Source: Methylicorpusculum sp. (lineage in GTDB: Bacteria > Pseudomonadota > Gammaproteobacteria > Methylococcales > Methylomonadaceae). Taken from it: a stretch of DNA of 64,000 nucleotides. Made by a program: the position numbers and the translations under genes. The notes under the pieces are model-generated. The model searched no databases. It was not told the origin of the DNA and worked only from the letters and a program-made list of their open reading frames with translations. The stretch covers positions 62,001 through 126,000 of the forward strand of contig NZ_JAUSBX010000011.1 of assembly GCF_030651835.1 (NCBI RefSeq). Reading direction: 5' to 3'. Positions 19,486-62,514 of the stretch are shown here, one piece after another. Numbering within the stretch: the stretch's first letter is position 1; each line of letters starts with the position of its first letter.

Positions 19486-20550
19486 ATGAACAGCGAGCAA
19501 ATCAAAACACTTTTCAGAGCTGAAGTCCTTGCCTTGTCAGCTTACAAGGTGACAGATGCCCGTGGCTTCATTAAACTTGATGCCATGGAAAATCCTTTCT
19601 CATGGCCTGAAGATACCAAACAGCAATGGCTTAAAAGCCTCACTGATTGCGCGCTAAACCGTTATCCTGACCCTGAAGCCCGTCAACTGTGCCTGACATT
19701 AAGACAAAATAACGGGATTGCCGATGAACATGGCTTGATATTGGGCAACGGCTCGGATGAAATCATCCAGATGTTACTGATGGCGTTACCTTCGGGTGCC
19801 AGTGTCTTGGCACCTGATCCCAGTTTTGTCATGTACAAACAAGTCAGCCTGTCGCTTGGCCTTAACTATCTCGGTGTGCCGCTAAATAGCGAGACTTTTG
19901 ACCTTGACCTGAAAGCCATGCTGGACGCCATCGCTCTTCATAATCCTTCTCTGGTGTTTCTGGCTTACCCCAATAATCCTACCGGCAATCTATTTGAAAA
20001 AGAGGCAGTTATCGAAATCATTAAGGCCTGTAAAGGCTTGGTCATAGTGGATGAAGCTTACGCCCCTTTTGCGAACGCCAGTTTCATGGGTGAGTTGGGG
20101 AAATTTGATAATCTGCTTGTGATGCGCACACTTTCCAAATTGGGCTTGGCCGGTTTAAGGCTGGGTTATTTGGCAGGACATCCTCTTATAATTCAGGAAC
20201 TCAACAAAATCCGCCTGCCCTACAACATCAATATTTTAACGCAGGCCACCGCTGAATTTGCGTTACAGCATAGCGAACTGTTTAACGCTCAAACCGCTAT
20301 TCTTTGCAGCGAACGAAGTCGCGTACTTAGCTCATTGGAAGCGATGAACCGCTTTTGCGTCTACCCCAGTGCCGCCAATTTTATTTTATTCAGAACCCAT
20401 CCAGACCAGGCAAACACGCTGTTTGAACACCTTAAAAAACAAGGTGTGCTCATTAAAAACATGTCACCTCAAGGAGGACTGATGAAAGATTGCCTGAGAG
20501 TCACGATTGGCAAACCGGAAGAAAATGACGCCTTTTTACAGGCGCTGTAA
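19486..20550 (+). CDS. hisC: Histidinol-phosphate aminotransferase HisC
   Basis: A 354-residue fold-type I PLP aminotransferase. Motifs include LGNGSDEIIQMLL, YPNNPTGN, the substrate/PLP region IVDEAYAPF, and the PLP lysine in MRTLSKLGLAGLRLGYL. It transaminates imidazole-acetol phosphate in histidine synthesis. The stop codon belongs to an inserted 153-bp element: the last codon CTG straddles the junction and TAA comes from the element. Reading through the duplicated target on the far side gives CAA GCG CTA TCA GCC TAA, so the ancestral protein probably ended two residues later (ALSA). Confidence 0.94.
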   Translation: MNSEQIKTLFRAEVLALSAYKVTDARGFIKLDAMENPFSWPEDTKQQWLKSLTDCALNRYPDPEARQLCLTLRQNNGIADEHGLILGNGSDEIIQMLLMALPSGASVLAPDPSFVMYKQVSLSLGLNYLGVPLNSETFDLDLKAMLDAIALHNPSLVFLAYPNNPTGNLFEKEAVIEIIKACKGLVIVDEAYAPFANASFMGELGKFDNLLVMRTLSKLGLAGLRLGYLAGHPLIIQELNKIRLPYNINILTQATAEFALQHSELFNAQTAILCSERSRVLSSLEAMNRFCVYPSAANFILFRTHPDQANTLFEHLKKQGVLIKNMSPQGGLMKDCLRVTIGKPEENDAFLQAL

Positions 20551-20699
20551 CTACTCGCCCGCTTGAAATAGAAGGTGTAGGTGCTTGATTGAAAAGGCTT
20601 CTGCAACAGGGATGTTGCAGAGAGCTACAAGGATGTATTCATGCGTCCTTTGAAATCAAGCACCTACACCCAATAAAATAGGAAGGGGTGAGCAGATAC
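20547..20699 (+). mobile_element. MITE-like element, GTA family, copy 1 (153 bp)
   Basis: The ends are inverted repeats: GTAACTACTCGCCC on the left and GGGTGAGCAGATAC on the right. Flanks CAGGCGCT (20539-20546) and CAAGCGCT (20700-20707) are an 8-bp duplication with one mismatch. Inside, GTGTAGGTGCTTGATT and ATCAAGCACCTACAC pair, enclosing a core hairpin GCAACAGGGATGTTGC. A second near-identical copy is at 62189-62341. There is no coding capacity. GTA ends with 8-bp duplications would suit an IS66-type transposase, but that is a guess. Confidence 0.8.
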
Positions 20700-31075: not shown

Positions 31076-31198
31076 CATTATTTTGAAAACAGGGACGTTT
31101 TCCAGCTTTACGTTGGAGCCGAGGTTCGGCAAATAACACTGTTTTTTCATGATATACTCACCTCTTTTTTGTTGTGTATTCGAAAGAGGTTTTGTTTT

Positions 31199-32724: not shown

Positions 32725-32937
32725 CAGCAATTCTCAATTTGAAGAGAAAAAGGACCGGGGAAGCTTTTTGAGGATGTCGGCAGCAAGGCAGATTTTTATT
32801 CCTGACAAAATCTGCATTTCCACCCTCCTTGGCGGTCAGATGCTGATGTCAAGCCCCCATAGAAGGGTTTACGGCGTTCCTCAAAAGGCTTTCCCCAGCC
32901 CAAAATGACGCCGAAAAGATCAAACTGAGAATTGCTG
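32725..32937 (+). mobile_element. MITE-like element, CAGCAA family, copy A (213 bp, long form)
   Basis: The termini CAGCAATTCTCAATTTGA and TCAAACTGAGAATTGCTG are inverted repeats. Flanks GGGAAATCA (32716-32724) and GGGAAATCA (32938-32946) are an exact 9-bp target-site duplication. The inner arms GGACCGGGGAAGC and GCTTTCCCCAGCC pair only imperfectly. This copy carries an extra segment of about 49 bp absent from the short form, with its own perfect stem GCAGATTTT/AAAATCTGC. No coding capacity and no transposase nearby, so it was presumably mobilised in trans. Confidence 0.85.
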
Positions 32938-40155: not shown

Positions 40156-40478
40156 ATGGAACAATTGGCTGAAACGGGGCGTTATGAAAAGCTTTGCATA
40201 ACGGCAGCAACTCTCAATTTGAAGAGAAAAAAGGGCTGGGGGAAGCGTTTTGAGGATGTCGGCAGCAGGGATGCTGCTGTCAAGCCCCCATGGAAGGGTT
40301 TACGGCGTTCCTCAAAAGGCTTTTCCCAGCCCAAAATGACGCCGAAAAGATCAAACTGAGAATTGCTGGCATAACGGCGGCCAAACAAACTGTCGCCGAA
40401 CAGCACCTGTTACAAAGACGCAAACTGGCTTTATTTAGGACTAACCAAGGTAAGGGTTTTGTGGATTATTTACAATAA
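40156..40478 (+). pseudogene. Small ORF interrupted by MITE copy B
   Basis: The frame begins MEQLAETGRYEKLCIT (an upstream TTG at 40102 is also in frame) and is cut by a 164-bp element at 40205. Removing the element and one copy of the 9-bp duplication GCATAACGG restores a single frame: ...KLCITAAKQTVAEQHLLQ...GKGFVDYLQ and a TAA at 40476. The restored product is about 57 residues, of unknown function and with no motif I recognise. That the frame closes exactly supports a recent insertion. Confidence 0.6.
40205..40368 (+). mobile_element. MITE-like element, CAGCAA family, copy B (164 bp, short form)
   Basis: The ends are CAGCAACTCTCAATTTGA and TCAAACTGAGAATTGCTG. An exact 9-bp duplication GCATAACGG flanks it (40196-40204 and 40369-40377; a tenth base C also matches). 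Inner arms GGGCTGGGGGAAGC and GCTTTTCCCAGCCC, then TTTTGAGGA and TCCTCAAAA, pair. The core contains hairpin GCAGCAGGGATGCTGC and CCCCCATGGAAGGG. It interrupts a small ORF. Confidence 0.88.
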
Positions 40479-41728: not shown

Positions 41729-41930
41729 CAGCAATTCTCATTATGAAGGGGAAAAAGCTTTTTGAGCATGTCGGCAGCAGGGCAGATTTTTATTCCGGAT
41801 AAAGTCTGAATTCCACCCTCCTTGGCGGTCAGATGCTGCTGTCAAGACCCCACGAAAGGGTTTACGGTGTTCCTCGAAAGGCTTTCCCCAACCCAAAATG
41901 ACGCTAAAAATATCAAGCTGGAAAAGGCTG
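41729..41930 (+). mobile_element. MITE-like element, CAGCAA family, copy C (202 bp, long form, degraded)
   Basis: The left end CAGCAATTCTCATTATGA is clear; the right end TCAAGCTGGAAAAGGCTG is degenerate. Flanks CAATAGCGC (41720-41728) and CAATAGTGC (41931-41939) are a 9-bp duplication with one transition, so this is probably the oldest copy. It carries the same extra segment as copy A (GCAGATTTTTATTCC and CACCCTCCTTGGCGGTCAGA). The left duplication contains the TAG stop of the REC-HPt gene. Confidence 0.78.
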
Positions 41931-48839: not shown

Positions 48840-48911
48840 AGAACAGCTAATCCAAACAAAAGGGCTATTTTATCTGAAGTGACCTTTGAATGTAGTTCTG
48901 ATTTAGGAAGA

Positions 48912-49075
48912 CAGCAATTCCCAGTTTAATGATAAAGACGGGGCGGTGTAAGCTTTGCGGGGATGTCGGCAGTAGGGGTGCTGCAGTCAAGCCCCCATAG
49001 ATGGGTCTACGGCGTTCCTCGCAAGGCTTACACCTCCCCACAAAGCCACATAAAAATTCAAACTGGGAATTGCTG
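48912..49075 (+). mobile_element. MITE-like element, CAGCAA family, copy D (164 bp, divergent subfamily)
   Basis: Perfect 16-bp ends CAGCAATTCCCAGTTT and AAACTGGGAATTGCTG. An exact 9-bp duplication TTAGGAAGA flanks it (48903-48911 and 49076-49084). Inner arms GGTGTAAGC and GCTTACACC, then TTTGCGGGGA and TCCTCGCAA, pair but differ in sequence from the other copies. The core GGCAGTAGGGGTGCTGC resembles copies A-C and E. It lies between mutL and the HDOD gene. Confidence 0.87.
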
Positions 49076-49149
49076 TTAGGAAGAACTGGTAAACTGGATT
49101 AAAGCATTATCACAGCTAAAAACTGAATAGATTACACTTTTAAATGACC

Positions 49150-51613: not shown

Positions 51614-51777
51614 CAGCAAATCTCAGTTTGATCTTTTCGGCGTCATTTTTGGCTGAGAAAAGCCTTTTGAGGAACGCCGTAAACCCTTCCATGGGAGCTT
51701 GGCAGCAGGATCCCTGCTGCCGATATCCTCAAAAAGCGTCCCCCAGCCCTTTTTTCCCTTCAAATTGAGAATTGCTG
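51614..51777 (-). mobile_element. MITE-like element, CAGCAA family, copy E (164 bp, reverse orientation)
   Basis: The ends CAGCAAATCTCAGTTTGA and TCAAATTGAGAATTGCTG are inverted. An exact 9-bp duplication ACACCTGCA flanks it (51605-51613 and 51778-51786). It has the same arms and core as copy B but in the opposite orientation. It is inserted between the sigma-54 activator gene and the PEP-CTERM gene, separating two TGACA/TGTCA palindromes. Confidence 0.88.
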
Positions 51778-62086: not shown

Positions 62087-62514
62087 TCAATAAAATAATA
62101 AGCTTTTAACAGATAAATTCCAGCTTAACTCAAGAGTAAGGCGACTGTAAGCCTTATGGATTATTCTCAGTCTATTGAAACAGCCAACGTAACTACTCGC
62201 CCGCTTGACATAAAGGGTGTAGGTAATTGATTGAAAAGGCTTCTACAACAGGGATGTTGCAGAGAGCTACAGGGATGTATTCATGCGTCCTTTGAAATCA
62301 AACACCTACACCCAATAAAATAGGAGGGGGTGAGCAGATACGAGCCAACGGAATTTCCCGCTTACCTCTGATATCAAGCCCATCATCATCGAGAACGGAT
62401 AGCGCCATGCTTATTCTTGTTTCAAAATCAGAGTACCATGACACTCACAACAAATGAGCAAAACTTAAATCCCCAGGCATCATTCAGCATTGAAATAAAA
62501 TTAAGGAAATTACC
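62087..62514. other. Noncoding region upstream of the P-type ATPase gene, holding MITE GTA copy 2
   Basis: Besides the 153-bp element at 62189-62341 no feature is evident. AAGGA at about 62503-62507 is the ribosome-binding site of the ATPase gene. Confidence 0.4.
62189..62341 (+). mobile_element. MITE-like element, GTA family, copy 2 (153 bp)
   Basis: Nearly identical to the copy at 20547-20699 and the same length. The ends are GTAACTACTCGCCC and GGGTGAGCAGATAC. Flanks CAGCCAAC (62181-62188) and GAGCCAAC (62342-62349) are an 8-bp duplication with one mismatch at the outer base, or an exact 7-bp one. It is intergenic, between the DUF5610 gene and the P-type ATPase gene. Confidence 0.82.

Follow-up and report, generated by a model that had tools for sequence, protein, structure and literature searches.

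Do the two arms of a palindromic repeat change together so that its fold is kept, and if they do, what keeps them matched? The question is posed by copy D, one of five type-1 (T1) palindromic elements in the 64,000-nt stretch of DNA analysed here (the window). From the sequence alone, it had been noticed that copy D carries CCC at both ends where the other copies carry CTC, and that its inner arms differ from theirs in a matched fashion while the core stays similar; this was taken to suggest either selection or a copying mechanism that keeps the fold, for example through single-stranded or RNA intermediates, or a separate subfamily with its own ends. The coordinates of the element, 48912-49075, proved exact, and both inner arms, GGTGTAAGC and GCTTACACC, were present as described (Table 1). 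Copy D is complete, running CAGCAATTCCCAGTTT...AAACTGGGAATTGCTG with 16-17-bp inverted ends, and its RNA was predicted to fold at -84.4 kcal/mol, compared with a shuffle mean of -48.4 (z -8.45), none of 200 shuffles being as stable.

Table 1. Palindromic elements of the window and their parts, in window positions
Feature	Position	Strand	Description	Basis
Copy D	48912..49075	+	type-1 (T1) palindromic MITE, D subfamily, 164 bp	sequence, fold, own-genome matches
Copy D, left target duplication	48903..48911	none	9 bp, TTAGGAAGA	
Copy D, right target duplication	49076..49084	none	9 bp, TTAGGAAGA	
Copy D, left inner arm	48945..48953	+	GGTGTAAGC	sequence
Copy D, right inner arm	49026..49034	+	GCTTACACC, complement of the left arm GGTGTAAGC	
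Copy D, hairpin 1	48967..48986	+	loop AGGGGT; AGGGAT in most copies	
Copy D, hairpin 2	48994..49005	+	loop ATAGAT; ATGGAT common among D-like copies	
Copy B	40205..40368	+	T1, B subfamily; 9-bp duplication GCATAACGG; loops AGGGAT and ATGGAA intact	
Copy B, hairpin 1	40260..40279	+	C-AGGGAT-G, 7-bp stem	
Copy B, hairpin 2	40287..40298	+	C-ATGGAA-G, 3-bp stem	
Copy E	51614..51777	-	T1, B subfamily; 9-bp duplication ACACCTGCA; hairpin 2 alone intact	
Copy A	32725..32937	+	long T1 form; ~50-nt insert in hairpin 1; 9-bp duplication GGGAAATCA; intact loops 0	
Copy C	41729..41930	+	long T1 form; right end decayed; 9-bp flanks with 1 mismatch; intact loops 0	
T2 element	20547..20699	+	palindromic MITE, 153 bp; ends GTAACTACTCGCCC/GGGGTGAGCAGATAC; 8-bp duplication with 1 mismatch; loops AGGGAT and AAGGAT	
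Second T2 copy	62189..62341	+	loops AGGGAT and AGGGAT	

The description of ends and core was borne out in part. CCC indeed stands at both ends of D and CTC at both ends of A, B and E, but the right end of C has decayed, and genome-wide the ends mix; likewise, the core of D is similar to that of the other copies yet decayed, as both loops have lost their GGA triplet, which places D outside the ANGGAN-loop rule of CsrA/RsmA targets. Among the five T1 copies of the window, both CsrA-type loops are found in B only, one in E, and none in A, C or D. The window holds 2 C-ANGGAN-G hairpins with a stem of at least 7 pairs, where 0.05 would be expected from 40 shuffles. A lone CsrA-type hairpin, GAAAAC-AGGGAC-GTTTTC, was also seen at window positions 31085-31102, and no inverted-repeat pair was found around it in the surrounding 301 bases. 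Rfam gave no match at gathering score anywhere in the window, and copy B had only weak matches, such as DUF3800-IV with 20.9 bits against 60.7.

Copy numbers were then assayed in the genome to which the window belongs (the own genome, 4.6 Mb in 159 contigs). At least 43 places matched copy D and at least 41 matched copy B, and since 40 candidates were scored per query (of 209 first-look candidates for D and 229 for B), the true copy numbers may be higher. R1, a covariance model of the core, gave at least 150 matches, all 150 of the candidates scored out of 2390 being positive. The 60 copies fetched split into 30 D-like and 30 B-like ones, so that D represents a subfamily and not a lone variant. 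Among the 30 D-like copies, the inner-arm words GGCGTAAGC and GCTTACGCC were present in 11 copies each and together in 3, GGTG with CACC on both sides was found only in L001 and L002, and CACC alone in L006 and L030. The end triplets of 81 copies were CTC/CTC in 26, CCC/CCC in 18, CTC/CCC in 19, CCC/CTC in 5, and other in 13. CTC on the left with CCC on the right (19 copies) makes a G.U pair, and the reverse order (5 copies) an A.C mismatch. As one CCC and one CTC end are thus mixed in 24 of the 81 copies, the end triplet is poor evidence of concerted change, and subfamily exchange likely contributes. The suggestion of a separate subfamily with its own ends is right in part: D belongs to a subfamily, although one whose ends are mixed.

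T1 bears a signature of mobility. An exact 9-bp target duplication flanks 25 of the 60 copies, and one with a single mismatch 12 more, giving 37/60 (L044 and L055 run off the contig end). By this signature, T1 is a non-autonomous DNA transposon (MITE), the 9-bp duplications and the inverted ends being those that DNA transposition would be expected to leave. These same features leave a single-stranded or RNA intermediate, which had been offered as the copying route, unsupported for T1 mobility. In the search for an autonomous partner, 139 forward and 127 reverse T1 end sites were found, and 15 stretches were fetched from the first 100 listed; no partner was found among these 15, nor any transposase in the three ORFs scanned in L120. 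A long-range end pair in L124 encloses cyclo-ligase, decarboxylase-like and LprI-type genes, and transposase is absent from it. Autonomous partner apart, T1 behaves like a MITE on the tested features.

Whether the arms change in concert was determined by comparing their covariation with a phylogenetic null, and an excess was seen. On an 81-copy tree (L016 and L020 excluded), 21 Watson-Crick (WC)-to-WC double changes were counted at paired positions, compared with a mean of 5.3 under a null that keeps the tree, and none of 2000 permutations reached 21; distinct pairs with such a change were 16 vs. 4.6 (1000 permutations). The test on a 56-copy tree was weaker, with 7 coincident pair changes, all WC-to-WC, vs. 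3.7 (p 0.065). Alignment A1 comprised 56 of the 60 loci (L011, L030, L044 and L055 excluded), and in A2, a core alignment of 35 of these 56 rows chosen by us, covariation was 0.247, whereas shuffles gave 0.134 and slid partners no more than 0.070.

Several processes could produce such an excess, and both arm-to-arm copying and subfamily exchange have to be taken seriously as rival accounts of the concerted changes. A few old changes may have been spread by copying as the subfamilies diverged, and recombination between B- and D-like copies would make linked double changes mimic concerted change; the mixed ends fit this, a single deep branch carries two of the double changes, and some others (45-112, 46-111) coincide with B/D differences. 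However, the excess survives when the deep branch and L268, L274 and L258 are removed (11 vs. 3.7 double changes, p 0.001, 1000 permutations) and on branches with no more than 10 changes (7 vs. 1.95, p 0.001, 1000 permutations), and across genomes the arms are unrelated in sequence but still paired, so that we consider divergence with recombination quite improbable as the main cause. A correction at the DNA level, by template switching during replication (quasi-palindrome correction) or by arm conversion, would also keep the arms matched, with no RNA function and with the loops as merely the unpairable part. It would account for the WC-to-WC excess, for the 18 of 21 double changes that sit on single-copy branches, and for the pattern of single changes in the stems, which showed no bias towards keeping G.U pairs: C>T and A>G changes were 125 vs. 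138 for G>A and T>C in the 81 copies, and 53 vs. 52 in the 56-copy set. From this lack of bias, it seems that no constraint at the RNA level acts on resident copies as they decay, and purifying selection on the RNA of each copy is unsupported by the same counts.

The tip of the element, on which the sequence-only reading made no comment, was then inspected. It consists of two C-[ANGGAN]-G hairpins on the same strand, typically 23 nt apart as taken from the hairpin positions, with GCAGC-AGGGAT-GCTGC and CCC-ATGGAT/A-GGG as typical forms. In the 56 own copies of A1, two such hairpins with a stem of at least 3 pairs were present in 31, one in 20 and none in 5, while no C-ANGGAN-G hairpin with a stem of at least 3 pairs was found on the opposite strand. 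The ANGGAN hexaloop in a hairpin is the recognition element of CsrA/RsmE, with RUACARGGAUGU as the SELEX consensus, and a CsrA dimer bridges sites 10-63 nt apart with an optimum above 18, according to passages of PMC7652899; there the SELEX hairpins mostly have no more than 4 pairs, and the stem of hairpin 1 often has 7 pairs in the own copies, which speaks against the match. ANGGAN is also recognised by RsmN/RsmA, as a passage of PMC3791407 reports. The fixed A and GGA, the free positions 2 and 6, the C-G closure and the ~23-nt spacing are those of the published CsrA/RsmE rule, and the tip therefore looks, in sequence and predicted structure, like a two-site CsrA/RsmA target.

The own genome carries one csrA gene. 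CsrA was present in all 13 element-bearing genomes of the class and in 40 of 54 others (p 0.033), a hand count that is confounded by kinship. Among the open-licence PMC papers listed, none was found to connect these repeats with CsrA/RsmA or to name YPAL together with CsrA; CsrA and MITE co-occur in one paper, PMC4383904, in passages that discuss them apart, and in passages of PMC4679880 CsrA was weighed for the TAACTGA repeats of Beggiatoaceae and judged unlikely.

Further, the distribution of the core was evaluated in other genomes. Within the order, R1 matched 25 of 101 genomes and 12 of 33 genera, own genome counted. In the 26 cores of relatives that were read, hairpin 2 was ANGGAN in 25 and hairpin 1 strictly so in 13, the rest having mostly GGA loops that are shorter or shifted. 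L115 (genome G099), an R1 match that misses the hairpin-2 loop, does not resemble a member. In the phylum, 13 of 249 genomes gave R1 matches, every one in the own class, and all 27 loci fetched from this sample carry the twin GGA hairpins. A scan of named genomes with a core pattern gave at least 117 stretches, of which 80 were listed and used; from their titles, we take these to be gammaproteobacterial, save two titled only Proteobacteria. Among 85 matches in the named genomes, 59 carry a C-ANGGAN-G hairpin 1 with at least 4 pairs, 13 more have GGA in the best upstream hairpin, and the hairpin-2 stem is complementary in 82. The arms of the 75 usable matches have a median of 31 pairs, compared with 9.5 when right flanks were swapped, and at least 12 arm pairs were reached by 71 of 75 true arms vs. 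89 of 222 swapped-flank controls, a control that is thus not empty.

Similar results were obtained with alignment A4, of 100 R1 matches (98 distinct rows) from 74 of the 80 named loci searched. Paired cells were 94.7% vs. 55.4% when shuffled, and covariation was 0.907, compared with 0.199 for shuffles and at most 0.139 for slid partners; the rows of A4 were picked by the model, which favours pairing, whereas the pattern scan ignored the arms and hairpin 1. Hairpin 1, which the search pattern does not fix, was ANGGAN in 83 of the 100 rows and held GGA in 97, and among 85 hairpin-1 hexaloops it is positions 2 and 6 that vary. For the 24 rows that the pattern did not cover, hairpin 2 was ANGGAN in 19 and held GGA in 22. 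Conservation extends past the loops, as GCC...TTYACGGC. Both loops are kept on one strand across genera, and the RNA fold is very probably conserved. Correction at the DNA level leaves this persistence of A and GGA, with a free N, on a single strand across genera unexplained.

Mismatches in the arms were examined for the strand from which an RNA might be made. With the arms aligned symmetrically and a score blind to G.U, the arms of pattern-found loci held 113 G.U vs. 41 A.C mismatches, in favour of G.U in 43 elements vs. 8 (65 of 77 elements usable); these pattern-found counts were relied on because counts from model-found alignments are biased towards pairing. The G.U:A.C ratio was 87:15 within 32 nt of the core and 26:26 beyond, a boundary drawn after the bins were seen. 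By genus or MAG, with genus labels typed from record titles, 28 of 36 favour G.U, 4 favour A.C and 4 tie. The balance was even in genome G018 (13:11) and in Stenotrophomonas SJTL3 (26:28), and reversed in Marinobacter (2 G.U vs. 10 A.C). The own T1 copies, with 116 G.U vs. 13 A.C, were set aside as evidence since their pairs are shared by descent. The inner-arm excess of G.U suggests that an element RNA may be made from the GGA strand, and it is a second feature that DNA-level correction leaves unexplained.

Gene context was assessed with crude ORF calls. Near stop codons, 7 sense vs. 12 antisense elements were found in the own genome and 13 vs. 19 among the named loci, so that a function by sense 3'-UTR placement is unsupported, antisense being commoner. 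The left gene has the same direction as the element in only 17 of 58 own copies (p 0.002), and 1 of 60 own copies and 20 of 85 named matches lie inside a long ORF, all by the same crude calls.

In the own genome, the core is common to three element types with different ends, T1, T2 and T3. T2 is 153 bp long with GTAACT ends, and an exact 8-bp duplication was found in 11 of 14 two-ended copies (25 loci); these ends and duplications are reminiscent of IS66. T3 is ~176 bp long, TACTCCCTTT...AAAGGGAGTA, with TA at its ends, reminiscent of IS630/mariner. It can be aligned with T1 over ~62-68 nt, where identity reaches 92%, but not outside this part. T3 was seen at L257, L264 and L419-L421, near-identical copies lie at contig ends (L127, L131-L133), and some T3 elements are nested in T1 elements (L129, L130). 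The long T1 form (copies A and C; L297-L311) has a ~50-nt insert in place of the hairpin-1 loop. In genome G018, with 42 matches, the common part is mainly the central 59 nt; across the 17 loci displayed, of 25 fetched, the arms sort into two or more groups, with further variation inside each group. In Stenotrophomonas maltophilia SJTL3 (genome G101), several elements form pairs of opposite orientation, separated by a few hundred bases (for instance 3694151- and 3694405+). These results demonstrate that the core is a module shared by elements with different ends. A common core with arms in two or more groups, as in G018, is also what correction at the DNA level would give; with the one-strand loops and the inner-arm G.U excess on the other side, we regard that explanation as rather unlikely.

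The best explanation is probably a MITE that carries an RNA stalk with two CsrA-docking loops. Its cargo would be an RNA module, a long palindromic-arm stem capped by the two C-ANGGAN-G hexaloop hairpins, the spacing of which would let one CsrA/RsmA dimer hold both, and CsrA/RsmA is, judging from loop sequence and structure, the likely partner of the conserved fold. The tip of a GGA-strand transcript might dock CsrA and couple the transcript, or the CsrA pool through all copies jointly, to the regulator. Selection on the lineages that are active and transposing may be the main force that keeps the fold, perhaps with some help from one arm being copied onto the other when the DNA replicates; resident insertions would decay neutrally. 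Both alternatives offered by the sequence-only reading, a fold-keeping process and a separate subfamily, are accordingly right in part.

The tip could instead bind another RNA- or single-strand-DNA-binding factor, such as a host factor of transposition, the match to CsrA targets being a coincidence. The conservation outside the loops, the lack of RNA-level constraint on resident copies and the lack of a sense bias near genes are all consistent with such a factor, but the fixed A and GGA, the free positions 2 and 6, the C-G closure and the typical spacing are those of the published CsrA/RsmE rule, and a coincidence seems unlikely to us. Returning to CsrA/RsmA, a broader and more tentative proposal is that the docking RNA has become common cargo for numerous miniature transposons of gammaproteobacteria, whose ends are unrelated; ends would be swapped and arms remade pairwise while the twin ANGGAN tip persists, and a genome may then hold 100 or more mobile sites at which CsrA is tethered or titrated. 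If true, many palindromic repeats, YPAL included, would be united by one structural definition and a testable protein partner, and mobile elements would be implicated in seeding the sites of a global post-transcriptional regulator, or in titrating them. The palindromes are also a natural system for how arms get rewritten in matched pairs.

ERIC, REP/BIME and similar palindromic repeats are small, intergenic and stem-forming. Further repeats of this kind are described in passages of PMC2267715. A close likeness in sequence was found in YPAL/RU-2 of Yersinia (~168 bp), which is, like T1, a palindromic miniature mobile element, intergenic and with target duplications, in the passages of PMC2229807 and PMC2759123 devoted to it. 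The Y. pestis RU-2/YPAL sequence printed in PMC2759123 holds CCGCGCC-AAGGAT-GGCGCGG, TAC-ATGGAT-GTA and then TTTACGGCGTC, which is the same core, the own copies carrying TTTACGGCGTT where YPAL/RU-2 has TTTACGGCGTC; this printed sequence folds with both ANGGAN hairpins exposed. T1 differs from YPAL in its 16-17-bp inverted ends, its 9-bp duplications and its other arms, whereas YPAL is reported, in the YPAL passages of PMC2229807, to have no terminal inverted repeats and target duplications of 3-26 bp.

Among Rfam families, RF02770 (Ysr224) was the resemblance of lowest E-value for the relatives (8 of 20 sources). Read by eye, its consensus when reverse-complemented gives the core with the twin hairpins (best match L110, 39.2 bits, E 4.4e-8), but this best score lies below the gathering score of 70, and Ysr224 is annotated on the opposite strand. 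It is possible that RF02770 models the strand that does not carry the conserved GGA loops. Passages of PMC9029176 place Ysr224, counted per instance, with the sRNAs most prevalent in bacteria, a prevalence that fits a repeat nature. No Rfam match to the CsrB/RsmZ/RsmY types was found in the window, and a search with copy B at E values up to 10 gave none either. CsrB, RsmZ and RsmY are dedicated sRNA genes, whereas the palindromes are mobile, occur in many copies that have two sites apiece, and would yield an RNA that is putative. In its GGA-loop hairpins, however, the tip is like these CsrA-sequestering RNAs, in which such hairpins are generally paired, as the passages of PMC4383904 on them describe.
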